Positions 17,378 through 32,870 of a stretch of 64,000 nucleotides of DNA are shown here, one piece after another. Source of the stretch: Tridacna crocea (lineage: Eukaryota > Mollusca > Bivalvia > Cardiida > Cardiidae); NCBI GenBank assembly GCA_943736015.1, contig OX031060.1, positions 2,004,001 to 2,068,000 on the forward strand, in the 5' to 3' direction. The notes beneath the pieces were generated by a model. The model was given only the letters and a program-made list of their open reading frames with translations, was not told the origin of the DNA and made no database searches. Each line of letters starts with the position of its first letter. Within the stretch, counting starts at the first letter, position 1. The translations under genes and the position numbers were made by a program.

Positions 17378-17517
17378 ATTATAGATCTGTTGGAATAATG
17401 TGATTTTGGATGATAATGTCCGAGACTGGATCAATATTCTAGACAATATTTTGTATTATAAAGGATTGCTCAGTAATTCAATTACAAAGAGCTCGGATTA
17501 TGTAATAGTCAGACATT

Positions 17518-17587
17518 TTAACTCTATTAGATTGCAAAATTTTGTTTGGTCCAAATTAGAAGTATCTGCAGAGGACAATTTAAATAT
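17518..17587 (-). repeat. MITE, type A, left part split by the 15-kb transposon
   Basis: The L arm runs from TTAA through GGTCCAAATTAGAAGTATCT to the target duplication. The remainder resumes at 32611. Confidence 0.85.
17582..17587. repeat. Target-site duplication, left copy (AAATAT)
   Basis: Six bases AAATAT directly precede the left terminus TACGAAAGCC and are repeated exactly after the right terminus. They belong to the L arm of the MITE that was the target. Confidence 0.88.
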
Positions 17588-17637
17588 TACGAAAGCCTAG
17601 AAGGGTCAATATGAACAATAAAAAAATCAAATAAAAA
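17588..17637 (+). repeat. Left terminal inverted repeat of the 15-kb transposon
   Basis: It starts TACGAAAGCCTAGAAGGGTC. The first 12 bases match the reverse complement of the right end exactly, and later blocks GTCA and ATGAA are also shared. It ends in an A-rich stretch that leads into the monomer array. Confidence 0.88.
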
Positions 17638-18205
17638 CACGTTATAACGCGAAAAAAAGTCGCACTAACGCGAAAATTCTCGTTATAACGTGAATATAAA
17701 ACACGTAATAACGCGAAAAAAGTCGCACGAACGCGAAAATTAACGATTTAACGTGAATATAAAACACGTTATAACGTGAAAATTCTCGTAGTAACGTGAA
17801 AAATCGCGTAATAACGTAAATTCCAAACATGTTATAATGCGAAAAAAGTCGCACTAACGCGAAAATTCACGTTATAACGTGAATATAAAACACGTTATAA
17901 CGTGAAAATTCTCGTAGTAACGCGAAAAATCGCGTAATAACGTAAATTCAAAACACGTGACAACGCGAAAAAAGTCGCACTAACGCGAAAATTCTCGTAG
18001 TAACGCGAATATAAAACACGTTATAACGCGAAAAAAGTCGCACTAACGCGAAAATTCTCGTTATAACGTGAATATAAAACACGTTAAAACGCGAAAAAAG
18101 TCGCACTAACGCGAAAATTCTCGTAATAACGTGAATTCAAATCACGTTATAATGCGAAAAATGTCGCACTTACGCGAAATTTCTCGTAATAACGTAAATT
18201 TTACG
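17638..18205 (+). repeat. Left subterminal array: nine 63-bp palindromic monomers
   Basis: Monomers begin ACACGTTATAACGCG at about 17638, 17701, 17763, 17827, 17890, 17953, 18016, 18079 and 18142. Each contains the block GTCGCACTAACGCGAAAATT and usually ends in CGTTATAACGTG, itself half of the 14-bp palindrome CACGTTATAACGTG. The monomers are unusually CpG-rich for this DNA. Copies 3 and 5 share a variant middle in which GTCGCAC is replaced, so pairs of monomers were probably duplicated together. The transposase gene starts about 90 bp downstream. The array may hold transposase binding sites, the promoter, or both; this is inference. Confidence 0.92.
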
Positions 18206-18291
18206 TTTAAATATGACTGAATGAAACTCTTTACTCTGAATTCACTGTATGCAGCAGATCAAAAGGTACTGATGTGTTCTACTTTCTTAAT

Positions 18292-19128
18292 ATGGATTTG
18301 GATAACATGCTATCTGTCTATCACCGAATGGGCTTAAGTCAAAATGAAATGCAGCAGTTTTTAGCTATTCAACACAGGGTATGCATTAGCAGTTCTACTC
18401 TGAAGAGAAGATTAAAGAATCTAAAGTTATTCAAAAGGAAATTATATTCCGATATTATAGATGTTGCAGTTTTTATTCAACAAGAGGTCTCTTCTTCGGG
18501 GAAATCCCATGGATATCGCTGGATGCATCTTAAGTGTATTCAGTCAGGCCTGAACGTGCCACGGGATACTGTCTACGACTTGATGAAACTCCTTGACCCT
18601 GAGGGATTGCTAGCACGTCGGAGAAATAGATTAAGGCGACGCGTTTACGTCAGTAAAGGACCAAACTACGTGTGGCATATTGACTCGTATGACAAATTGA
18701 AACCGTATGGTATTGCTATAAACGGATGCATTGACGGATTTTCCAGAAACGTGATTTGGCTTGAAGCAAATACGACGAACAGTGATCCAAAAGTAATCGC
18801 AAACTACTATATAAAGGCTGCGAGTCGAAAATCGGGATGTCCTCAAAGAATTCGTGCTGATTTAGGAACTGAAAATGGACATGTGGAACAAATGCAAAAA
18901 TTTCTTAGGCGCAACCATACTGATGAGTTAGCAGGGAATAAGAGCTTTTTATATGGCAAAAGTACTCACAACCAGCGAATAGAATGGTTTTGGGGGTGCC
19001 TTAGGAAAGAGATGGGTCAGTTCTACATGGACCTTTTTTCAACACTGGGTGATGAAGGAACAGATCTGTTTTGTGGTAATTTCCTTGATAAGAGCCTCAT
19101 CCAGTTTTGCTTCATGGACCTAATTCAG
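18292..19128 (+). CDS. DDE integrase-type transposase, exon 1
   Basis: This exon encodes residues 1-279 of a predicted 389-residue transposase that should cut and rejoin the ends of the surrounding 15-kb element in the nucleus. The N-terminal 60 residues are basic and helix-rich and look like a DNA-binding region. The integrase core follows and shows the acidic triad: D131 in VWHID, D190 in RADLGTENG and E231 in QRIEWFW, with D-D spacing of 59 and D-E spacing of 40. I chose ATG at 18292, because the frame upstream begins only with GTG. The frame stops three codons after a good donor, CAG/GTATGT at 19129, and the intron leaves in phase 0. The start lies close to the left subterminal array. The fold class is clear from the triad. 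The exact superfamily is inferred. Confidence 0.88.
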
Positions 19129-19356
19129 GTATGTTAGATAATGGGCTTTTTTGTACAATTGCTTTTCTTTCTTATCGGAATTGATGAAAGTCATTATGAC
19201 AGTTCCCCATCTCTCACAAATCTAGACAAGTGACTAAGTGATGTGCGTAAGACCTGCAACAAAACTTCGACACGGCATTGATAGGTGCACAGGCGACAAT
19301 GCTTGAAACAGCATAGAATAAATAACAATAATAACAACAAAAATGACAAATTTGTT

Positions 19357-20582
19357 TTAAAGGCGGCCCTTCAGAACTTGGGACAAAAAATTTACAAAAA
19401 TACAAAAATATCATCCTTATACTCCCAAAGCCTTATAAGTGTCATTCGTAAAACCCCAGCAGTCAAAAACCATCAGACAACAACAAAAATTAGAGATTTA
19501 CTACGGCCCTGGCCGACATCGACTGGAAACACGTTCTGTTTTTACATGAGAAACTCGCTCATATTCATACCGGAAAGACACAGACGAAGCTTCAAACATA
19601 GCGTCTGGGGAAGATATTGTGAAAAATAATTACATGTTTGTTATGTAATGGAATTTAAGCATCATTAGTCACGTGCCAGTCACTTAACATTCCCACAATG
19701 CTTTTTTTCAATTTTTGGCGCGAATCTAAAAAAAGCTTAAGAGGCTACGTAGCCTTTTAAGGGAACACCATCAAATTTTTTGCTTTTTGTAATTTTATGA
19801 TTCTTAATTATTGATGATTTGTGTTGTTTTTTTCATATAAATTTCAGTGATATATATTTTTTTGACTTGGTGAAATGTGAAAATTCTAAATACCCACCTT
19901 TAATAAGATTTCATAACCATTTTATATCACCTTGCTTTGTTTAGGGAAATACGACCAAAAATCGAAGGTTGTTTTTTTAAATACGGTGTGCCTTTGAGGT
20001 TTTTTTTAAATAATACGTTTCTCTGGTATATTGTTTAAAGGTGGGTATTTAGAATTTTCACATAACACCAAATTAAAAAATATATATGTCACTGAAATTT
20101 ATATGAAAAAACAATACAAATCATCAGTAATTAAAAATCATAAAATTACAAAAATAAAAATTTTTGGTGGTATTTCCTTGAAAGGCTACGTAGCCTCTTA
20201 AGCTATTTTTAGATTTCCCGCCAAAATTTAAAAAGCATTGTGGGAATGTTAAGTGACTTGCATGTGATTAATGACTATTAAATTCCATAACATAACAAAC
20301 ATGTAATTATTTTCCATAATATCTAGAACTTCGGATGCTATGTTTGAAGCTTCGTCTGTACATTTCTGGTATGTAAATGAGCTAGTTGCTTATGTAAAAA
20401 TAGACCGTATTTCCCTTCAGTGTCGACTTTGGCTGTAGTAAATCTCTAATTTATCTAGTTGTCGGATGGTTTTTGACTACTGGGGTTTAATGAATGAAAA
20501 TGATAAGGCTTTGGGAGTACAAGGATGATTTTTTTGTAATTTTGTAAAATTTCCCCCTCAAAATCTGAAGGGCCACCTTTAA
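19357..20582. repeat. 1.2-kb foldback element in the transposase intron
   Basis: The arms of about 550 bp are imperfect inverted copies. TTTAAAGGCGGCCCTTCAGA on the left matches the reversed end TTTAAAGGTGGCCCTTCAGA. Further pairs include AGGCTACGTAGCC and GGTGGGTATTTAGAATTTTC. The centre is near 19970. No open frame is retained. Confidence 0.85.
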
Positions 20583-20589
20583 AGAGGTG

Positions 20590-21520
20590 TATTTAGATGT
20601 TTGTCGTTAGCTGAAGTTTCTGGTAAAATATCAATAATTACTACTACATATGATTTTCTCTGCAGGTGGTAAAGTCAACTTTTGCATTCGGTGAAAACAT
20701 GCAGTTTTGCTTTTTGAATACCGAAGTGATATGTTTGCAAATGAGAACTGTTTTCACTAGATCAGATTTGACACTGCTCTACTTTCGTATATTTTAATAC
20801 GATCCCACATAAACCACTCTTGTCATATATCAAAATAATGCAATACGCTTTTTTCTGCAAGAGAAAAAATAATTCTAGAAATCTAAAAAATCCTTTAGGA
20901 GGCTACATACCACTTTAAGGGAACACTTTAAATAAAATCTTTTTAGCATCGCTTTTTTGTATTTGACTGATTTACAAATTATTCGGTTATCAAATACTTT
21001 CAGTTTGGATACATGTATCTTAAGGTCTATTTAGCCTCCTATCATACAATGTATGGCACAAGTTCTCCCAGCTAAAATTCGTAGTAAATAGAGGCTATTT
21101 GTCTTTTTTTTTCGGTGCGCCACACATGAAAATATTACCGATAACGTTCACTCGATGAAATAAATTTCGATCTTTCACCGAAAAAAGCAAATATTCTATT
21201 TATTTCATACTTTTGAAGCCCTTTCTGAGGGAAACTTTATCAAAATCCAGTACAGTTCTTGTCATCTTGTTCCTTCCCGTGGCGTACCCCCTCTGCATAG
21301 CAACGCATTACAATATTACGTCAAGCGCGAGAAATATAAGTTAAATGATGTCATATTTCCATCTGGTTGTGAGACACGCGCATTTTACCTGGGTAACTAG
21401 AGTATAAAAATCAATATTTTTCACTGGTCGTACCCATATAATATCGAAAATTATTTTCACCGCTATTTCTCTATATCCAACCAGAAAGCATGAAATAATA
21501 TGTTTTTTTTTCCGATTATA
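20590..21520. other. Rest of the transposase intron
   Basis: No gene or clear repeat recognised. Confidence 0.5.
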
Positions 21521-21525
21521 TCCAG

Positions 21526-21858
21526 AGAGATCTCGACTCACTTGTTGCTACTTGGAACACTCACACTCTTCAAAGTAAACCTGGAGAAACACTTAGAAGA
21601 AAGAAGCCCACTGTTCTCTACAACCTTCCTCAACTTTATGGTGCTGAAGATAGACTCTGTTACGTAGACAGCAACGAAATCGTTATATGTGAACAGGAGA
21701 CAACGCCAAAACCACGGACGCCATGCGATGACACAGTGAGAGAACTTTGTGATATATTTATGACAGAAAGTCACCTTTCAAAACCAGATGATACAGCCGA
21801 GGCACGTCAGTTGTACATAGAGCTTAGGCGTAAAATGTTGACGGCGCTTGAAGTGTAA
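21526..21858 (+). CDS. DDE integrase-type transposase, exon 2
   Basis: Exon 2 gives the last 110 residues and a TAA stop. The acceptor is a pyrimidine-rich tract ending TATATCCAG at 21525, and phase 0 matches the donor at 19129. The joined frame reads on as RDLDSLVATWNTHTL and later VLYNLPQLYG. That is the tryptophan/asparagine/histidine segment and leucine-proline motif I expect just after the catalytic core in this transposase type, which supports the splice. The remaining acidic and basic C-terminus shows no further domain. The 2.4-kb intron holds a 1.2-kb foldback element. I see no clear AATAAA within the next 100 bp. Confidence 0.82.
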   Translation, partial: RDLDSLVATWNTHTLQSKPGETLRRKKPTVLYNLPQLYGAEDRLCYVDSNEIVICEQETTPKPRTPCDDTVRELCDIFMTESHLSKPDDTAEARQLYIELRRKMLTALEV

Positions 21859-21869
21859 AACAAAAGAAT

Positions 21870-22190
21870 GCAGAAAAGAAGCAACATTTTCCATATATAA
21901 AATAGATCTTTTTCTGAGTTGATTATAATTGTCATTTGAATCTGCATTTGTATCTTAATATAATTATAGCAGATAGTATTGATTCATGGCCGGATTTCAA
22001 CAGCACATGTCTATTGCTATGACACGTCCATTTCTTACTCTACCCGAGCCGGGTACCGATAGCTCAGTGGTATTTCCCGAGATAAATTATAATCCGGGGT
22101 TGCAAGGTCGTATTTTATGCTCGAGAAAAAAGCCGTTGAGACGAGATGGCTTCTCTACAACTGCTGCTAATTTGTTTCGTTTTTATTGAT
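21870..22190. other. Sequence 3' of the transposase gene
   Basis: No feature is recognised; it may contain the 3' untranslated region. Confidence 0.4.
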
Positions 22191-22194
22191 AAGG

Positions 22195-22422
22195 TTAGCT
22201 ATTTACCAAACCACAAAATTCTAGACTTGTCCAAATTGAAGGCACTTGCAGACGACAAAATAAATGGGACTCAAAAACTGAAATTTGGTTTTTGAAGGGT
22301 AGAAAAAATAGTGGGAAAAAGAGAAATTGCTGGTTACCAGCACTTTCTCTTTTTTTCCACAATGTTTTCAAACGCATTCTTTCTTAGGGTCGTGAAAAGG
22401 GGATTGTTTGGGAAAGGGTTAA
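22195..22422 (-). repeat. MITE, type A, inside the 15-kb transposon
   Basis: It is near full length. The left site is TTAG and the right TTAA. One end has the TTTACCA variant and the other the TTTGGGAAA variant. Confidence 0.9.
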
Positions 22423-22699
22423 GCTGCTGATGGCTGAAAGGATAGTATATGTTGTAGTAGTGAGGAAGTTCCAGAAACACATGGAGAGACACACGACATG
22501 ATATTTGTAGGATATCTAACATGGTTTTAGACACTATTTCAGTTATATCTCTGTGGTCAGTGTACCCAGCCATGCTTTCCTTTAGCTTCTTTTACTGGTA
22601 ACGCGCACCATTCTTTCAAACCTACTGACTGCTTTTTCTGAAAATATTAAACTACATTAAAAGGGTAGCAGAGAGGAATTAATCACAATGACTAAAACC

Positions 22700-22790
22700 A
22701 AACCACGGGAATAATCTGGTCGAACTGTTGAATCGAACTTGTGACCCGTGGGTTTCAAGCCCTGAGCATTGGCGACTGGATTACCATTTT
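22700..22790 (-). repeat. tRNA-like SINE fragment
   Basis: On the - strand a B-box-like CAAGTTCGATTC lies downstream of GTAATCCAGTCG. It is a weak match and not an intact tRNA. Confidence 0.4.
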
Positions 22791-23111
22791 CGGCCTATGT
22801 GCTTTTGTTGCAACTGAAATATTATTAAAAACGAAGTTCTCACTAAGTTAAAGAAAGAAACGCTAAAAGGCGCCTACATTTTTTTGATATGCCGAATCGT
22901 TAAATAAATGGTGGAAACCCTTCTTTTGTTTATTCAATTTCAAATCATTCCTCATTGTCAGGACCGTTTTTAAAACAAGATCAAACATTGACGAACTGTG
23001 AGGCTTCTGTGGCTGTAAGGCAAAACCTCAATTTTAAATCGACAAACAAACGAATTTACAGGATCAAACATGTTCTAAAAGCACAAAAGTGTGATGACAC
23101 CGTGCAAAATC

Positions 23112-23158
23112 GTAATATTCTTGTGTGTGTGTATATACTCGTATATATATATATACTA
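23112..23158. repeat. Short TG/TA microsatellite
   Basis: TGTGTGTGTATA is followed by TATATATATA. Confidence 0.7.
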
Positions 23159-23222
23159 CTTGGACTTTGATAGGGATCACTGACATATTTCTGTATGGGT
23201 TTATATGTTACAACAGTTTTGC

Positions 23223-23447
23223 ATAAACTCTTTACGATACTACAAAATTCTAGATCTGTCCAAGTTAAAAGCATTTGCTGACCAAAAACTATATGAAACG
23301 TTCACTATGCTGTCTGTCATAGGGTAGAAAACATCGTTGGAAAAGGAGAAAATGCTGGTATCCAGCATTTCCCCTTTTCCAACAATGTTTTCCAAAGGCT
23401 TCTTTCTCAGTATCTTTAATAGTCGGCATTGTGAGGTAAAGGCTTAA
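23223..23447 (-). repeat. MITE, type A, inside the 15-kb transposon
   Basis: The core is near-perfect with TTGG and CCAA replacing GTGG and CCAC, a paired change. The ends are TAAA and TTAA. Confidence 0.88.
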
Positions 23448-23699
23448 AGATCCATTTCCACTGGTCCTTTTATTGATCAGAGTAGCGATGTAAGATATTG
23501 TAAAACCATACATAGTACATGCCACATATATACATGTATTTAGAGTGAATCTTTTAGGGTGATCCCTAGCAAATTTTGAGTAGTATATATATAGGGTCTA
23601 TCATAAGTTGGTATTTGAGGGAAAAATTATTGGACGAGTCTAGAAAACATCTTATCACGTGAACATCTGGCAAGCCTAGCAGCAATTTGTTTTGTCGAC

Positions 23700-24710
23700 G
23701 AATTAAATTGAGAAATAATCTTCTTTCTATCGTGGTTTATCGTTCATTATAACATGACACGCGACTTCGGCTCTATAAACACAGTGCAAGGAAAACGTGG
23801 TAAAATCTGCGACAATCCATGTAGATCATCCTATAATTGGAGTGCAACACGCGAAAAGGTTCATTCGGACATTTGCGTAAAGTGTCCTCCCGGATTAGCC
23901 TGCGCGGACTGCGCAGGCTAATCCGAGACGGCACTTTACGACTACCTTAGATTTTGTGTTACAGTAGACTTGCGTAAAACAGAAAATCACATAAAATCGG
24001 AAAGTGTCGTTTCGGATTAGCCTGTGCGGACTGCACACGCTGATCCGAGACGACGCTTTACGCAAATGTCCGAATGACCCTTTTCGCGTGTTGCACTCCA
24101 TATCGAGTGACGTCATTCAATGAGTGAGTTATTCAATTGAACATAATCTTCATCCGCGTTTTTACTCTAAGTTTAAACTTGTTTTTATTTCACTAAGAAT
24201 TGGCCATGTTAGAATCGAAATAATCTTCTTTCTGTCGTGGTTTATCGTACAATAAACCACGTTGTGAGTTTTGAGGCGCAATGAATAACCCACTCGGGCT
24301 ATCGCCCTCGTGGATTATTTATTGCGCCGCATAACTCATAATTGTGGTTTATTGAACGATAAACCACGATAGAAAGAAAATTATTTCTTAAATAAACCAC
24401 GGTTGTGAGTTATAGGGGACAATAAACAATCCACGAGGACGATAGCCCCAGTGGTTTATTCATTGCGCCTCATAACTCACAACGAGGTTTACTGAACGAT
24501 AAACCACGATAGAAAGAAGATTATTTGAATTCTAAAATGAACAACTCTTAGTCAAAGGAAAATAAGTTCATAACGCGGATAAAGATTATGTTCCATTGAA
24601 TAACTCCCTTACTTTATACAGAATGATGTCACTGTACATGTACATGTACCTGGTGAGTGTTGCAGATTTTACCAAGCTTTCATTGCACAGTGTTTATAGA
24701 GCTGAATTCG
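23700..24710. repeat. Composite foldback element
   Basis: CTCTATAAACACAGTGCAAG at 23772 pairs with its mirror at about 24690. CATAATCTTCATCCGCG pairs with CGCGGATAAAGATTATG. The internal blocks GTGGTTTATCGT and ATAAACCACG repeat several times in both directions. The left arm is interrupted by the element at 23838-24100. Confidence 0.75.
23838..24100. mobile_element. 263-bp TIR element nested in the foldback
   Basis: The ends TGGAGTGCAACACGCGAAAA and its mirror are nearly perfect over about 45 bp (one side CATTTGCGTAAAG). The interior holds two GGATTAGCCTGCGCGGACTG palindromes. I could not assign a target duplication. Confidence 0.8.
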
Positions 24711-24799
24711 AGTTAGAATAGAATTTTTAAAAAATGTAATTTTTTTCTATATTAGATAACCGTTTCTAAAAAATTATAGTTCATGATCTATATGTGCGT

Positions 24800-24910
24800 A
24801 TTAAACACTAAGGCTGCTAAGCGCGACTGACTGTCCTGTTGTGGACAATATAGATTAAGATCAGACAGCATAGAACGTGAAGTCTGATCTTGGATCTTCA
24901 AGGTTCGACA
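24800..24910. repeat. Short AGATCAGAC palindrome
   Basis: AGATTAAGATCAGACAGCAT is followed by the mirror-like GTCTGATCTTGGATCT. Confidence 0.55.
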
Positions 24911-25660
24911 ACGACATATTTTTCTTCCAGAAAATAAATCTGAAATAGGCATATTTGGTCTTTACTATCGGTTTATCAGTTTCATCTAATTATACTTTGC
25001 AGGATAAGAGTAAAAATTTACGTGAAGCCTATACATTTCTTTGACAGGTGTGTACATCACGGGTGATAGTCCCATGGAAATATAATATGTTTTAGTTGCG
25101 TCAAAAGATGATAAAAATGCAGCTTTGTTATAATCACCAATTTTGACAATAAAGTTCTTAGATAATTCTGGGTCATCAATCAAAGTTTCAGAAATGGGGC
25201 TTATGATTACACAGAGTTGACCAATTATGGCACTATTTGCTTGTCAAACGCGTGTGAGATAACAGAATGCAGAATACCAAACAAGTCATCACATAATTAT
25301 GAACCCATAAAATATGTTCAGTCTAATAATTGACTGAATCTGGAGGAAGAGTGGTCCTTAGACAAACAGAAAAAAATCATGAACAAACAAAATCAAAAGA
25401 GCTGTGCTGTAGAAAAAGGGGGCTTACTACATCCCGGTGATGTTTGATACCAACTAAGTTGTCACATCATAGGTCTATCAAATCCATATTGTACAGCGAC
25501 TGACTGACTCATTTGGTAGACCTGTCCTTTCACATGTAGAAAATTGAACAATGGCGAAAACTTTCGACCCAGGTCAGCCTGCGGGGACTGATTGCTTTAT
25601 ATAATGTATCAGAGGTATCAAAACCCCATTTTCCGTAGCGCACAAGAAATCACAATTTTA
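24911..25660. other. Non-coding transposon interior
   Basis: It resembles a worn copy of the CATGCTCTG element further right (shared CAAGTCATCACATAATTATG) but termini are unclear. Confidence 0.4.
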
Positions 25661-25923
25661 TGAGTCATACTCTGGCAAAACGGGGCTTAATGTATCTCCG
25701 TGATGCACGATACCATGCAAGTCATTGTATGATTACAGATCAATAAAATCCATTTGGTCGAACAACTGATTGAATCGTGAGGTAAACTTGTCCCTGTACA
25801 TGCATAAAATGTATCAATAGTGGAAAGTTTCAGCCTAGATCAGCCTGCACGGACTGCGCAGGGTGATCTGGGTTGATACGTTTCGCAGACGCATTGAGCT
25901 CCCTTTTCGCGGAGCATGGCTCA
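25661..25923. mobile_element. GAGCCATGCTCTG-ended element, copy 1
   Basis: The ends TGAGTCATACTCTG and GGAGCATGGCTCA are inverted. The interior includes the GATCAGCCTGCACGGACTGC palindrome. Confidence 0.6.
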
Positions 25924-26148
25924 AGTGTTTATAAGCAGCCAATTGGAAGCATCAGGCTCAGATGGTAATACACATTCTTAGTAAGTGATCGCTTGTTCGA
26001 ACACTGGAGCGGCCGAACTTTTTTTTAAAGAATTTATCGATAGTCATTGCTACAGGGTTTATTCTTTCACCGCTGAACATTTTTAAGACGGTTCGAGTGG
26101 CAAAATAACCAGCGGCTATGCTTAATTGTGGTATGGAAAACATCAATA

Positions 26149-26192
26149 TGTGTACTGGCCGCCGTGATTATGTGTACTGGCCGCCGTGATAT
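26149..26192. repeat. 22-bp tandem duplication
   Basis: ATGTGTACTGGCCGCCGTGA occurs twice in direct succession. Confidence 0.9.
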
Positions 26193-26583
26193 TGGTAAGA
26201 TGATATTGAAATCGGAGTAAAATATCAAATAATACATGGATATACAATGCAAAAATTACGAAAATCAAAGAGCTTTAATCAGAATATCAAAACAGTCTAG
26301 CTAGACCAGTTTTGGCCTTTTGAAACTAGATGATAAGGCATAATCAGTATAATTCTGGATAATTTCAGACTTTCAAAGGGCAAATCGAAAATTCTAATAA
26401 AAAGGTCGATCGGGAAAATAATCAAAATACAATGAACAAAATGACCTCCTAGGCAAAGAACTAAGTGTTATTAAAAACAAAAAAAATCTTGTGAGCCCAC
26501 AAAGCACTTTCTGCTAAAACTGTTGGAAGTGGATTTTCACCAAGAAAAGTTTTCTTTCTATAAATGAACAAAACTTTCAGATT
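26193..26583. other. Sequence 3' of the SAM-HECT gene
   Basis: No feature recognised; it is expected to include the 3' untranslated region. Confidence 0.4.
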
Positions 26584-28314
26584 TTAAATTATGTCCATCA
26601 CCCAAATGTTGGACTCCAGAACGGCCATGAATTCTGACTTGAACATTGGGTAGCTTTCAAAGGTCCTTGACAATTCAAGCAGGCAGGAACATGTGTGTGC
26701 CACAGGTCTTCTAGCTAAACCAACAACATTGACGAAAGAAACGTCTATTTTTTCTGTCAGAAGTAAATCTGATCCGGTGCAAAACCTTAGAAATTTTCTT
26801 AAAAGATCCCCGCTCAATTCCCTGACAAATCGTTGCAGATGTTTTGCGACAGTTTGCTCTTCTGATGTCATGGACTCCGGAAACTTTAGCATGTTGTTAA
26901 TCACTCTAGAATTAGGAATGAGGTCCTTGTACAGCTTATTCAGTTTCTCCTCCGATATTTCTATGTTTTTCATTACAGGCTGAAAACAGTCAATGATAAA
27001 CATGGGGACTTGAATGATTTCTTTGTGGGCAATTTCTTGCAATAGTTTTGAAATATTCTCTTCGGTAGGGGCAGTTTTGCAATCGTAATGATCTAAGATG
27101 TCTAGAAGCTCATCCTTATCTACAGAGGCAAAATCAGTAATTGCTACCTTCAAAGTTTTGACTTCGTCTTCGGGTATGAGATCAAAGAAAGCGTCTATTA
27201 TCGAAGTAGTCACAGAATTAAAAAAAGAGAGCTGCAGAAAAGGCAACGATATTCTCACGGGCATGTAACCGCACTTCTTCCATCCAAAATGTAAAATTTT
27301 GGCCACTGACTGCCATTCTTCTTCACCAAAGTCATGTCGAAGATATGGTACTTTGAATTTTGTCCCTGTTGCACACTGGTCATAAAATGATGTCCAAAAT
27401 TCGGACAAAGCGTCTCTAGTCACACCACCGTCATCTGCTGCGGCTTCCATGTTGCCGTCTGGCATTACCATAAGGATAGAAACAATATCTGTAGCTACAT
27501 CAATATCCTTAAATGATTGAATAAGTTCTTTCAACAGGTGACCCCGGTGAAGTTTCAACGTAACTTCCTTTGGTTGTAAAGCGGGGATGTCATTAGGTGT
27601 CACTGGTTCAATATCCGGTAGCTCAGGTGCTGTACCAGCTCCTGTAACACCAGAAATTTCCATGGCTTGAGAAATTATATCACTGGAAGAGGATGCGACT
27701 GGCCTATCGGACACTTCTGATTCAGAATTACTGTCTTCTTCTTGAGCTGTTTCATTTTCTTTCGACGATGTGGCCAAATAGAATCTCAGTAAAGGCAATT
27801 TTGTTTGTTCGTACATTTCTGAGACAGTTGTTTCATCATCTATGGGCCGATCTGAAAAGTCCCACAGATCTAGACAAAATTCAGTCACATGACCTTTTGG
27901 TGAGTATCCGTTCGGGAAAAAGAGGGATATGGCTTCTGACAGTATCTCTTTTTTGGTAGCTGTCTTGCAGACCACGGTCTTCCTAGTTCCACCTCCCTTC
28001 TTTTTCCGAACTTGTATGCTCCTTTTGTGATGCTTGTGGATCCACCCAAGTTCTATTAGTCTCGTCTGTTTTGCAGCAAACCTATTGCCGTAAGGCCTAT
28101 GTGGATTTCTCATATCGCCTTGGTCTGATACGTTTGTGGTATTTTTATTGTTTGTTGCCTTTTCCAACTTTTCTTGTAGAACCTTTAACAACTGGTGTCG
28201 TTTTGTCTGTGGATTCCGCTGCAGATGTGCTCGTAGTCTAAGTCTGTCTCCGTGATGAGGTAAGTAAGTTGACAACTCTTCGTCCGTCATGTGATTTACA
28301 ACGTCTGGCGTTAT
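26584..28314 (-). CDS. SAM-HECT protein, exon 2 (HECT E3 ubiquitin-ligase-like)
   Basis: This exon encodes residues 26-601 of a predicted 601-residue protein. The acceptor ATTTTAG precedes 28314, and eight residues (ITPDVVNH) lie upstream of the internal methionine. Residues 26-55 finish a SAM-like domain. Residues 90-220 are basic, then acidic and serine-rich, with a conserved-looking block (RLIELGWIHKHHKRS, then FFPNGYSPKGH). From about residue 273 a HECT domain follows: the N-lobe has DDGGVTRDALSEF at 319-331, and the C-lobe has RPVAHTCSCLLEL with the thioester cysteine C567, followed by FESYPMFKSEF near the end. HECT proteins pass ubiquitin from an E2 to a lysine through this cysteine. 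Proteins annotated as G2/M-phase E3 ligase-like (G2E3-like) in animal genomes look similar. Its role in transposition is unknown; modifying transposase or host restriction factors is a guess. Confidence 0.85.
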   Translation of the reverse strand: MTPDVVNHMTDEELSTYLPHHGDRLRLRAHLQRNPQTKRHQLLKVLQEKLEKATNNKNTTNVSDQGDMRNPHRPYGNRFAAKQTRLIELGWIHKHHKRSIQVRKKKGGGTRKTVVCKTATKKEILSEAISLFFPNGYSPKGHVTEFCLDLWDFSDRPIDDETTVSEMYEQTKLPLLRFYLATSSKENETAQEEDSNSESEVSDRPVASSSSDIISQAMEISGVTGAGTAPELPDIEPVTPNDIPALQPKEVTLKLHRGHLLKELIQSFKDIDVATDIVSILMVMPDGNMEAAADDGGVTRDALSEFWTSFYDQCATGTKFKVPYLRHDFGEEEWQSVAKILHFGWKKCGYMPVRISLPFLQLSFFNSVTTSIIDAFFDLIPEDEVKTLKVAITDFASVDKDELLDILDHYDCKTAPTEENISKLLQEIAHKEIIQVPMFIIDCFQPVMKNIEISEEKLNKLYKDLIPNSRVINNMLKFPESMTSEEQTVAKHLQRFVRELSGDLLRKFLRFCTGSDLLLTEKIDVSFVNVVGLARRPVAHTCSCLLELSRTFESYPMFKSEFMAVLESNIWVMDII

Positions 28315-28711
28315 CTAAAATATATAACAAGAAATAAAATTAAATGCATGATATTCACATAAATGCAACATGTTTTGGGAGAGGAAAGTATCGACGACAG
28401 TAAGTCTGCAGGCTTATACATGACAACACTTTTTGTAGATCAGAAGTGTACCTGGTTTAAAAGGTGGCCAAAAGTAATCAATGCGGGTGTTAACATGTTT
28501 TAAATTTAAATTACGCCATTTCAAAGCTTGGACATTATTGCGAAAATTACATTCTGTTATTGTACGATCATTCCAAGTGTAAGTCGCCAACTTGGCAACT
28601 TTTTATCTAGTTTTAAACTTCATTGTTTTACGGCGTCTAACTATCGACCCCACCTTACAACAACAGAATGGCATATTCAAAATAATTTCAGTAACTTAAT
28701 TTAAATACAAA
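28315..28711. other. SAM-HECT intron, unassigned part
   Basis: Nothing recognised between the acceptor at 28315 and the next element. Confidence 0.4.
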
Positions 28712-28960
28712 TGAGCCATGTTCTAACAAAACAGGTTTTAATGTACCTCAGTGATACCAGGCAAGTCATCACATAATTATGGACCCAATATAGCAACTTC
28801 TTTAACCAACTAAATCAGGTAGACTGGTCCTTTGACTTACAGAAAATTTACCAATAGCGAAAAGTTTCAGCCCAGATCAGCCTGCGCGGACTGGGCAGGC
28901 TGATTTGGGTCGATATTTTTCGCAGATGCATTTTGCCCCTTTTCACAGAGCATGGCTCAA
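28712..28960. mobile_element. GAGCCATGCTCTG-ended element, copy 2
   Basis: The left end is TGAGCCATGTTCT and the right ACAGAGCATGGCTCA. The middle has AGATCAGCCTGCGCGGACTG. It lies in the SAM-HECT intron. Confidence 0.65.
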
Positions 28961-29102
28961 ATGCATTTTGAAAACTATTTTTGGCCGCTACTGGGCATTT
29001 AATAACCCCCATCCCCCTGGTTTTTTATGTGCCATTTTCGAGTTTCTTCCCAGAGGCTGAAGAATAATTTTACCTCAAAGCAATAATTCGATCCTCACCT
29101 AA

Positions 29103-29545
29103 CACGGCGGGGAATCACGTGACACAACAACAACAACAATGACCGTTATTTGAAAAAATTCCCCGACTTCAGGTAAGAAAATCTTCAATAACTCCATGAC
29201 CGATTGGAATTTGGTTTGAAGCAGAGAAGGCGGAAGGACTCCGGGGATTTGCTTGATGTGTTAGATTTTTTAAACAACACCTGATAAAAAAGTTATTGAC
29301 GAGCAAACAAATTTTTTACCCTGGATAATTTGTTTGCTCCTCAATAACTTTTTTATCAGGTGTTTTTTAAAAAATTTAACACATCAAGCAAATCCCCGGA
29401 GTCCTTCCGCCTTCTCTGCTTCAAACCAAATTCCAATCGGTCACGTATTAACGGAATTATTGAAGATTTTCTTACCTGAAGTTGGGGAATTTTTTCAAAT
29501 AACGGTTATTGTTGTTGTTGTTGTGTCACGTGATTCCCCGCCGTG
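29103..29545. mobile_element. 443-bp foldback MITE with 6-bp duplication
   Basis: The two arms of about 210 bp are almost perfect inverted copies around a 13-bp spacer at 29314-29326. The ends are CACGGCGGGGAATCACGTGA. Exact ACCTAA copies lie at 29097-29102 and 29546-29551. The near-identity of the arms suggests a recent insertion into the SAM-HECT intron. Confidence 0.92.
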
Positions 29546-29551
29546 ACCTAA

Positions 29552-30495
29552 GGAGCCAAGTAATTCGTTGAAATGTCCTTTTACGAGATATTACAGATCT
29601 TCAGCTGAGCACTGAAACCGCGGACACATTTAAAAAAAGTGATGTGTCGCTGTGATATAACTGAAAGCTTGTTGGCAGCAGCATAGAACACTGCACAATC
29701 AACCAATCAATTATATTCAATGAGTCAAGCGAATAAAAGAAAATGCTTGTAGCCAAAATGTTCTAACGAAATAGATAAATCAAACACGTAGACTAAATTT
29801 TCCACCCCGTCAGATCTGAATCTAAACCACTTGCTAAAATCAACTCAGAATATCCTTTACTATCACAGATAAATACTCTATGGCCAAGGCGAAGAAAAGT
29901 TCAAAGACTATAGTACAAGTACAAAAGCAAGGAAACACACGGACAGACGACGACCCGTCGCGCGATGTATCTTTTCTTAGAGAGAAATAAAATCTCCCGT
30001 TCATTCTTGCTAGAATTGGTGACAAATTTACACGGCAATGTATCAGTAACTAACCTCTAGTTTTCCTCAACGCTTAGTCTATCTCAGCACTGGAAACTAT
30101 CAGAAAGTGAATTACTTATATTTGAATTTAACAGTTTACTGCTTGATCTGTCGTTGTATTGAAATATGCCACAGTAATTTCGAAATGCACGAAATGCACG
30201 TGCCCATATTACACTCGTAACTGCAGGTTAGATTCCAGTTCTTTTGGTACGGTATGAACCAAAAGCATGGATATAAGCCAATTTTCTGTAACATAATATA
30301 GAGTCTACAGGAGAATTCGAACATAATGAATACCAGTACTTTTGATAAGTAACAAGAGATCATCATTTTTACATTTCTGTATGTGCAACTTTTACAGCGT
30401 GTAAGTTGCAAATACGACACTTGTTCGGCAATATGGAATGTCCATCATCAGTTTCACATGCATTTTGCATTGTTTTTACTCATCGTATGAACCTA
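29552..30495. other. SAM-HECT intron, unassigned part
   Basis: No gene or repeat family recognised. Confidence 0.4.
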
Positions 30496-30577
30496 TCAAT
30501 CCTTTACCAGATAACAAAATTTTAGAGCTTTCTACTCGGACAGCATTTGTAGACGATAAAATAAATGTGACACAAAA
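30496..30577 (-). repeat. MITE L-arm fragment in the transposon
   Basis: CCTTTACCAGATAACAAAAT to GATAAAATAAATGTGAC matches the L arm; core and S arm are absent. Confidence 0.75.
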
Positions 30578-30580
30578 TAA

Positions 30581-30618
30581 AAAAGTTATAACTAGGCTAA
30601 AAAGTTATAACTAGGCTA
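30581..30618. repeat. 19-bp tandem duplication
   Basis: AAAAGTTATAACTAGGCT occurs twice in succession. Confidence 0.85.
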
Positions 30619-30941
30619 CGTAGGTATTGTTATATTTCGCGCCAATATTTACGCATAGGCTTATGGTAATTTGACATGATCAATAGGATACGTCGACGAT
30701 ATGGTATGATTTTCAAATAAGTGTGGTGACGCCATACCAGATTTCATAAAAAATAGACAAAGTTACTGATTGCACCACAACCATTAAAGCGCCAGAATTG
30801 AACCTTTTTACCGATTGTAGCCGTTAATTTTCTTCACGCCTGCATATAATTATTTTTGTAGATCTTTTTCTGAGTATTTTTACATAAAATATTTAACTGA
30901 TTGCAAAGAAGTCGAAGTAGGGTACTGGGGAACTATATGTA

Positions 30942-31199
30942 TGACTCATGCTCTGTAAAAAGAGGGTATACTGGCGCATCTGCAAAGAGTACTGACCCCA
31001 GTCAGCCTCGAAAGCTAACCTGAATCGAAATAATTTGCTATCGATCAATATTCCGCATGTCAAAGAACCATTCTACATCATGATTCAGTCGGTTGTGTTG
31101 GATAAAATTGGTTTCTTGGGTCAATAATTATGTGATGAACTACTTGCTGCGATGCATCACAGATATGCATTAAGCCCCCTTTTCACAGAGAATGGCTCT
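30942..31199. mobile_element. GAGCCATGCTCTG-ended element, copy 3
   Basis: The ends TGACTCATGCTCTG and CACAGAGAATGGCTC are inverted. The interior is in the opposite order to copies 1 and 2. Confidence 0.6.
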
Positions 31200-31424
31200 C
31201 TCACACAGAGATATATATCTAAAATGTAAATCATTATTATTATACTCTGATAGGGACAACAGCAGAAAACTGGTTGGCTACATGCAGTAAAAACGTGCAA
31301 ATAATGGATTGGTCTTTCCGATTGGTGACCGTTTTTTTTTAGATATACATGTACGAGCGTACTGCGGAGAGATCGTACGAATTTTGATACGACCCCAGAA
31401 AAAACACGTGACATTCCCCAAAAA

Positions 31425-31580
31425 CTTTACGGGTAACCACCATTTTCCCTCATCTATGCTCATAAATACTTTCAGTGCTTTCAAAGCCAATTTCCATAAT
31501 TTGAACAAAACTTAATTTGTCGTCTGCAACTTTGCTAAATTTGGACCAGTATAAAATTTTGTTTTCTTGTAATGACTTGA
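31425..31580 (+). repeat. MITE fragment in the transposon
   Basis: Half a core (GGTAACCACCATTTTCCC) and an L arm ending GTAATGACTTGA remain. Confidence 0.65.
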
Positions 31581-31599
31581 CGACCTGTTCAATACTTTA

Positions 31600-32085
31600 C
31601 ATTTATGTCTCGACAGCCATTGGACCTATCCATTTGTTCCTAGAGTTTTATTTATCAGTTCACAACCTCTGCAGCACGGCATCAATGAAATTGAAACTAA
31701 ATGTATGTCAACGGCTGGACAGGCTTTGACCGTAGAAATGAGTAAAAACAAGTTTCGCAAAAAGTTTGACAGAGGCTGGATTGGAACTCAAAATCTCTGG
31801 ATGACGAGCTTAACAGTTTATCAGTTTGGGACCAGAACTTGGCTTTACATATTTATGGAAGGCTTTTCACAACGACATTATACTTCCATCTGTAATGAGT
31901 AGACTCCCGTTAATGATCTTATTCGCCCGTATAAACTCCCTGTGAAGTTGTTGAAATACACCAGATTTTTGTATCCAAAATGTTGATTGTTACATAAGAG
32001 ATATCCAGAATTGGTATATTTCCACACATTTAAATTTTACATCCTAACCGAAAAAAAAGCAACATAATCAGAAGAACTATCCTAC
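31600..32085. other. SAM-HECT intron next to exon 1
   Basis: Nothing recognised. Confidence 0.4.
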
Positions 32086-32160
32086 CTTTTCTTCTTCCAT
32101 TTTTTTCGCAGCAGTCTCTGAGAGTCCAGAAATGAATATCTTGAAATTGTCCTGTTCCAT
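32086..32160 (-). CDS. SAM-HECT protein, exon 1
   Basis: Exon 1 runs from ATG at 32160 and encodes 25 residues (MEQDNFKIFISGLSETAAKK, then MEEEK). A donor GTAGGA follows at 32085, with the intron in phase 0. Joined to exon 2, the segment completes a SAM-like helical domain of about 55 residues: the MEEEK block runs into ITPDVVNHMTDEEL, the usual spacing of a SAM domain's middle helices. The exon lies just inside the right subterminal array, mirroring the transposase gene at the other end, so transcription probably starts in or next to the array. The exon is short, and its call rests on the splice signal and the domain completion. Confidence 0.75.
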
Positions 32161-32222
32161 TTTCTAACAGACGATCCAAGAAAATACGGAGAAAAGAAAC
32201 AGCGCAGATTATATAGTGATAA

Positions 32223-32557
32223 ACACGTTATTACGAGTTTGTGTTTCGCGTTACTGCGACTTTTTTCGCGTTATAACGTGTTTTAAAACACGTTATTACG
32301 AGAATTTTCGCGTTACTGCGACTTTTTTTTTACGTAATAACGTGTTTTAAAACACGTTATTACGAGAATTTTCGCGTTAGTGCGACTTTTTTTTTGCGTA
32401 ATAACGTGTTTTTAAAACACGTTATTACGAGAATTTTCGCGTTAGTGCGACTTTATTTGCGTTATAACGTGTTTTAAAACACGTTATTACGAGAATTTTC
32501 GCGTTAGTGCGACTTTTTTTGCGTTATTACGTGTTTTAACTTCACGTTATAACGTGT
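32223..32557 (-). repeat. Right subterminal array: five monomers plus a terminal half
   Basis: Monomers start at about 32223, 32288, 32352, 32417 and 32479, with a last half copy at 32542. On the - strand they read as the left array does, with GTCGCACTAACGCGAAAATT in the middle, so the two arrays form long inverted repeats. Spacers are TTTTAAAA rather than the left array's AATATAAA. The 5' exon of the SAM-HECT gene begins 62 bp inside the array. Confidence 0.92.
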
Positions 32558-32560
32558 TTT

Positions 32561-32604
32561 AAAAAAATAGTTTACCTTCATTCTGACACTTGTAGGCTTT
32601 CGTA
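32561..32604 (-). repeat. Right terminal inverted repeat of the 15-kb transposon
   Basis: Read on the - strand it starts TACGAAAGCCTACAAGTGTC and differs from the left terminus at two of the first 20 positions. It lies between the last array palindrome and the target duplication. Confidence 0.88.
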
Positions 32605-32610
32605 AAATAT
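32605..32610. repeat. Target-site duplication, right copy (AAATAT)
   Basis: AAATAT directly follows the right terminus GGCTTTCGTA and matches the left copy exactly. The sequence after it continues the interrupted MITE. Confidence 0.88.
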
Positions 32611-32697
32611 AGCTTAAAAGGTGCATTCTTACTTTGATTTGGTGGAAAACATTGTGGGAAAAGTAGACAACGATTTTACAAGCCAGTATTGTGCAGT
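32611..32697 (-). repeat. MITE, type A, right part split by the 15-kb transposon
   Basis: It resumes with AGCTTAAAAGGTGCATTC and AAAACATTGTGGGAAAAG, completing the L arm of 17518-17587. The rest of the core and S arm has decayed. Confidence 0.75.
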
Positions 32698-32870
32698 TAC
32701 TCTTTATCAGATGACAAAATTTTAGTTTGTTGAATTTGAAAGCAGCAGCTGCAGACATTTATTGCATAAGATCCAAATATGGGAATTTTGATTGAAAGGT
32801 TAGAAAAAAAACATGTAGGTTTAAAGGCATGTTTTTTTTTTCCTTTCTTAACAATGTTTACAAGAGTTGT
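32698..32870 (-). repeat. MITE, decayed
   Basis: The L arm is recognisable, with a weak core around ACATGTAGGTTTAAAGGCAT. Confidence 0.6.

Follow-up and report, generated by a model that had tools for sequence, protein, structure and literature searches.

A DNA Transposon of Tridacna crocea Pairs a DDE Transposase with a Putative HECT-Type Ubiquitin Ligase

Introduction

What use could a DNA transposon make of a ubiquitin ligase? This question is raised by a 64,000-nucleotide stretch of the Tridacna crocea genome (GCA_943736015.1, contig OX031060.1), which we refer to as the window. The window corresponds to C5:2004001–2068000 of a 1.05-Gb genome in 31 contigs. It contains a 15,017-bp element (17588–32604, +) with one gene for a DDE transposase and a second, convergent gene for a HECT-type protein. 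The original prediction, made from the letters of the window alone, was that of a complete DNA transposon pairing a DDE integrase with a "SAM-HECT" protein, and it proposed that the element may use ubiquitylation to regulate transposase, repair factors or silencing. Here we examine this element, its copies and its diverged relatives, and ask what its second gene may do. Positions are those of the window unless a contig (C1, C2 and so on) is named.

Results

The element at 17588–32604 is a complete, recently mobile DNA transposon. Its left terminus (17588–17615, +) and the inverted partner on the right (32577–32604, −) read TACGA..TCGTA and are identical over 12 bp. Within the window, TACGAAAGCCTA matches without mismatch at 17588–17599 (+) and 32593–32604 (−) only. 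Directly outside both termini lies the sequence AAATAT (17582–17587 and 32605–32610), a 6-bp target site duplication. When the two flanks are joined with one AAATAT, the resulting empty site matches 40 scored places. Two of these are simply the flanks from which the join was built; each of the remaining 38 matches spans the junction. This observation shows that the element sits inside a dispersed repeat whose other copies act as empty sites. The interrupted repeat (flanks 17500–17587 and 32611–32720) is very common in the genome, with 977 first-look candidates from which the 40 places were scored. A longer version of the terminus pattern with at most two mismatches has 144 + 139 = 283 matches in the 1.05-Gb genome; as a control, the same pattern read backwards has 0 + 0. 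The completeness of the transposon, which the original prediction had based on its termini, its duplication and the rejoined repeat, is therefore confirmed on all three points.

The 12 bp of perfect terminal inverted repeat continue imperfectly and are followed by inverted subterminal arrays with arms of 60–90 bp matching at ~77–90%. The left array (17630–18199, +) consists of 9.0 copies of a 63-bp unit and the right array (32221–32554, +) of 5.2 copies of a 62-bp unit, inverted relative to the left. The left array, which has inverted matches to the right one and is kept in three of three short derivatives read, likely contains binding sites for the transposase. In related families, the transposase gene is preceded by short repeats particular to those families, with ACGAAA/TTTCG-like words as building blocks; these differ in sequence from the window arrays and resemble them in design.

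The transposase gene lies on the plus strand. Exon 1 (18292–19128) codes for residues 1–279 and exon 2, which includes the stop codon and is open in seven family copies (21526–21858), completes a product of 389 residues. The GT..AG intron between them (19129–21525, +) contains a large imperfect inverted repeat. Pfam identifies an rva_4 integrase core with an E value of 2.5e-35. NCBIfam returns IS3 (E 1.2e-8) and IS481 (E 3.6e-5), both far below curated cut-offs that were set for bacterial members. The catalytic residues D131 and D190 occur in 10/10 aligned relatives and E231 in 9/10, the tenth sequence being partial and ending before E231. Relatives on C2, C3 and C15 (29.69 Mb) share the position of the splice donor after residue 279. 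An N-terminal HHCC zinc finger is absent: residues 1–118 contain two cysteines in all and no CxxC, and no Pfam zinc-finger model matched. A search of solved structures with the transposase gave no match, and no relatives were found in the viral contigs searched.

The second gene runs in the opposite direction and encodes a protein of 601 residues. Exon 1 (32086–32160, −) covers residues 1–25 and is present in 10/10 right ends of the family that were checked. It is followed by a GT..AG intron (28315–32085, −) and by exon 2 with the stop codon (26584–28314, −), which covers residues 26–601 including the catalytic C567. The match of a relative on C2 also starts at residue 26. The introns of both genes are predicted from GT..AG sites in 7/7 open copies together with the transposase donor that recurs in three relatives. 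Both genes are thus open and predicted to be spliced, with D131, D190, E231 and C567 at the positions originally assigned to them.

The identification of the second product as a putative HECT-type ubiquitin ligase rests on several comparisons. Pfam recognizes HECT at residues 505–574 (E 2.4e-5; 24.6 bits against a cut-off of 23.9). The C2 relative, which represents family 2, has an open frame of 718 codons in which the HECT profile is matched from 40 to 292 of 306 positions, covering both lobes (E 2.6e-9). A four-row HECT profile searched against solved structures listed 12 chains with E ≤ 1, all of which are HECT ligases; the window protein alone returned two weak, unrelated chains. The HTC of the element aligns on the HTC of HUWE1, with C567 at column C542 of the four-row alignment. 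This cysteine is kept in 4/4 rows of that alignment, in 6/6 group-B exons and in an extra lineage at C2 8.41 Mb, so that every element-linked HECT C-lobe read retains it. The protein shares with cellular HECT E3 ligases (HUWE1, HERC6, AREL1, UBE3C and UBE3A) the C-lobe and a catalytic cysteine in an aHTC setting; unlike them, it is very diverged and element-borne. HECT ligases usually have a phenylalanine four residues from the end, which is absent from the tail of this protein, WVMDII. The N-terminal piece returned no SAM model at a limit of E 10, although HMMER filters drop most matches above ~0.1 and a very diverged fold could escape; the SAM part of the original label is not supported.

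Searching the genome with each protein located both genes at nine loci of the window family: on C1, C5, C7, C10, C16 and C18, and at three places on C12, one of which has its genes 38 kb apart. Exact 6-bp duplications (ATAGAG, AAATAT, CTTAAC, GGTTAC, TGTTAT and TAAATG) flank six of the nine, namely those on C1, C5, C7, C10, C16 and C18. At C12 38.3 Mb, 5/6 positions match, and the two nested neighboring C12 copies show no match. All four exons are open with splice sites in 7/9 copies. Between the copies on C7, C16 and C18, HECT exon 2 and DDE exon 1 each show no more than one codon difference. The window family has moved very recently.

In the C12 region 40463847–40525921, two long copies point in opposite directions, with additional termini directly adjoining them. 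Reverse-complementing the 6 bp beyond the HECT end of one copy gives the 6 bp beyond the DDE end of the other, a pattern that an inversion between the two copies would produce.

Among 100 terminus matches listed of the 283, 26 facing pairs lie within 40 kb of each other. Four of these span 15.0–16.2 kb and are all two-gene loci (C1, C5, C7 and C10); the remaining 22 span 1.0–2.8 kb. Each of the three short derivatives whose whole sequence was read is flanked by an exact 6-bp duplication. Their similarity to the element is confined to the end arrays and a single internal stretch of ~90 bp from the non-coding spacer, and they lack both genes. Since such gene-less derivatives retain the termini and arrays and created a 6-bp duplication on insertion as the full element does, these end regions seem to suffice in cis, and the proteins seem to act in trans. 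The termini and the inverted 62/63-bp arrays are therefore probably the cis-acting part of the element. The original prediction had asked whether the gene pair recurs between the same termini, and counted copies of the termini that never contain either gene against itself. The pair is present in all the 15–16 kb end pairs among the matches listed. Termini without the genes do occur in the sense that many short derivatives lack both, which is ordinary for a DNA transposon.

The pairing extends beyond the window family. We merged transposase matches into 38 loci and HECT matches, obtained with the window protein and with the Pfam model, into 48 loci. A HECT locus lies within 20 kb at 18 of the 38 transposase loci, and 17 of these pairs are convergent. 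The lone non-convergent pair is a copy adjoining another copy, with its own HECT gene 38 kb off. When loci were placed at random in 2000 trials, 0.07 such pairs arose on average and at most 2 in any trial, compared to the 18 observed. Outside the window family, a HECT locus no more than 20 kb away accompanies 9/29 transposase loci, in every case convergently, and a tenth locus has one at 51 kb. The transposases of relatives with this recurring convergent pair are 31–60% identical over the matched stretch. A second list, made by scoring 150 of 228 candidates with the rva_4 model and comprising 147 matches, places a convergent HECT within 20 kb at 13 of 22 near-complete domains, and within 60 kb at 15. 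Reading the DNA beside an rva_4 domain at C2 8.41 Mb revealed a further HECT C-lobe on the opposite strand (E 6.4e-4); the ~8 kb read beside the domain at C10 30.13 Mb contained no HECT. The predicted pairing of a DDE integrase with a HECT-type protein is thus multi-copy, associated with exact duplications and recurrent in diverged relatives.

The nearest HECT relatives outside the window family are also multi-copy, with 94–97% DNA identity, and are not single host genes. The reading of the HECT gene as a conserved host gene is rejected on the empty sites and on these multi-copy relatives; no single-copy host version was met in the one genome searched.

Three further families have a HECT gene convergent to an rva_4-type transposase, namely C16 37.49/C2 7.94/C17 32.25 Mb, C2 11.36/C14 31.17 Mb and C18 12.48/17.02 Mb. 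The stretches compared between their copies (transposase or HECT end) are 97–99.8% identical. Dozens of rva_4 fragments with similar in-frame stops and scores occur on many contigs and cover profile positions 105–190 or 25–108. Another IS3EU-like lineage may have given rise to them long ago as a non-coding, high-copy derivative.

Two related families, 2 and 3, allow both genes to be compared at greater distance. In these families, what ties the HECT gene to the transposase is spacing and orientation rather than shared termini, and the family-3 HECT was assigned by position, 51 kb from its transposase on C15. In the HECT C-lobe, the proportions of differing synonymous (pS) and non-synonymous (pN) sites between the two families are 0.77 and 0.15 over 171 codons. 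In the transposase, 86–90% of synonymous and 26–28% of non-synonymous sites differ. Synonymous sites are saturated at this distance and we give no ratio. Judged by these differences, the family 2/3 HECT is under strong purifying selection. For both genes, families 2 and 3 are nearer to each other than to the window family. This shared relationship is as expected from joint descent.

The rest of the window is gene-poor. Among stop-to-stop open reading frames (ORFs) of at least 110 residues, it contains, besides the two genes of the element and one frame of 114 residues in an inverted repeat, ten frames of 111–203 residues. Several of these share one phrase and look repeat-derived. Long imperfect inverted repeats lie inside the introns and spacer of the element (19356–20583, 24176–24568 and 29103–29545), with arms of 93–250 nt that are 82–97% complementary. 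These are perhaps nested foldback elements.

Discussion

The transposon type is already known: the element fits IS3EU/GingerRoot on most features testable here. The shared features are 6-bp duplications, TA..TA termini and an IS3/IS481-like DDE transposase without an HHCC finger (PMC10045372; PMC12730594). As far as these descriptions go, the long subterminal 62/63-bp arrays set the window element apart. The TET-bearing fungal IS3EU elements end in TAYGG..CCRTA, which shares four of five bases with TACGA, and have terminal inverted repeats of more than 30 bp compared to our 12 perfect and then imperfect ones (PMC12730594). They also have a second gene opposite in orientation to the transposase. 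Unlike the HECT-type gene of the window, this gene codes for an alpha-kinase, and a TET/JBP gene lies between (PMC12730594). The words HECT and ubiquitin are absent from the main text of both papers (PMC10045372; PMC12730594).

Other transposons have been linked to ubiquitin. Ginger1 resembles our element as an integrase-like DDE transposon with a ubiquitin/SUMO-pathway enzyme, an OTU or Ulp1 protease; unlike the separate, ligating-type protein of the window, this enzyme removes ubiquitin or SUMO and forms the C-terminal domain of the transposase (PMC2836005). Ginger1 itself is ruled out, because it requires 4-bp CCGG/CCGT duplications and TGTNR ends, whereas the window family has 6-bp duplications without CCGG/CCGT, and TACG ends. 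Mutator elements with Ulp1 and Helitrons with OTU proteases, cited in the same paper, are likewise DNA transposons with enzymes of ubiquitin-like pathways, but they have unrelated transposases, and proteases instead of ligases (PMC2836005). Ubiquitination-linked domains are also mentioned for Burro retrotransposons (PMC6431247). We found no description of a HECT partner of IS3EU-like transposons in the literature searched; Repbase and most subscription papers lie outside this search, and a curator's note may exist. Polinton/Maverick elements carry polymerase B and packaging genes beside their integrase. They are ruled out on duplications, ends and gene content, since the element has no ORF of at least 110 residues besides its two genes and the one of 114 residues in an inverted repeat.

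We therefore turn to the question of what the HECT product may do. We consider it probable that the element is an autonomous IS3EU/GingerRoot-type transposon which was active recently and whose two genes converge, with the HECT product helping it in trans. The IS3-like DDE transposase would bind the end arrays, recognize the ends and insert the element with a 6-bp staggered cut; of these steps, the duplications are what we observe. The HECT protein would be an active ligase, acting in trans, that ubiquitylates a host protein which holds transposition back, be it a factor involved in silencing or one that acts in repair where the element excises or inserts. That its target is such a host factor we hold to be an even chance, and counter-defense or repair steering, although the role we favor, is a guess. 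The presence of HECT at all nine transposase-holding family loci, the conserved cysteine and the purifying selection between related families suggest that the element benefits from the product. The HECT protein has the look of a long-standing partner acting in trans rather than of a chance passenger. The ubiquitylation role originally proposed, with a putative ligase activity on a putative target, is made plausible by the catalytic cysteine and the purifying selection.

Several observations weigh against this explanation. In the window HECT protein, the C-lobe alone passes Pfam, and a profile match to the N-lobe is limited to the family-2 relative; the matches to solved HECT structures are weak, with a best E value of 0.063. 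Among the nine loci with both genes, those on C1 and at C12 38.3 Mb have a gene interrupted by stops, and two family HECT copies, on C9 and at C12 40.16 Mb, have no transposase match. Further afield, no HECT locus lies within 20 kb of 20/38 transposase loci. No HECT was found for 6/22 near-complete rva_4 domains, where two neighborhoods were read of the seven initially without. The HECT partner is thus not universal, or has been lost or missed. All genome comparisons, moreover, cover one genome.

A simpler view would be that two host genes lie by chance between repeats. HECT and integrase-derived genes do exist in animal genomes, but multiple copies with termini, exact duplications, empty sites and near identity between chromosomes leave this idea a negligible chance, and we regard it as refuted by the empty sites and duplications. 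Alternatively, the HECT gene could be a captured host gene, a recent hitchhiker without any role in transposition. Transposons often pick up host genes, and fungal IS3EU families bear TET/JBP genes which their author sees as passively transferred (PMC12730594). A recent passenger is nevertheless very unlikely here, as the convergent pair recurs in relatives with strongly diverged transposases, the gene is open in seven copies, and its nearest relatives outside the family are themselves multi-copy. The strong purifying selection between families 2 and 3 also strains this account.

The HECT protein might instead turn over the element's own transposase and so act as a brake on copy number. Self-limitation is known for other transposons, and for the short derivatives, which lack the HECT gene, an action in trans is the only one possible. 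Still, nothing here points to the transposase as substrate, and a brake should be easily lost in selfish lineages, yet the gene is kept; we consider this role unlikely. As to the origin of the pair, IS3EU-like lineages could have acquired HECT genes several times, with the shared layout reflecting convergence and not descent. In line with this idea, the group-B HECT C-lobes look unlike that of the window, and it was the Pfam model rather than the window protein that detected them. The convergent orientation of 17 of the 18 pairs within 20 kb speaks against repeated acquisition, as does the finding that families 2 and 3 are closest to each other for both genes, and we hold such a history to be rather doubtful. 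Descent of an ancestral pair would mean that animal IS3EU-like transposons are two-gene elements at their root, and that HECT has been inherited with the transposase since before the families split, as a selected, trans-acting part of the transposition program. To this broader proposal we give slightly less than an even chance.

The authors of the Ginger1 study proposed a possible involvement of the ubiquitin pathway in transposition (PMC2836005). A transposon with its own putative ubiquitin ligase, an active-site cysteine and near-identical open copies makes this proposal testable in a defined two-gene system. Element-borne HECT genes could also account for some odd HECT genes in animal annotations. 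By analogy with the fungal elements, members of the IS3EU group may typically carry, in opposite orientation to the transposase, a further gene whose product is an enzyme that modifies proteins. If the pair is indeed ancestral, a protein-modifying enzyme encoded opposite the transposase, HECT here and alpha-kinase in fungi, would be a general design of the IS3EU superfamily.

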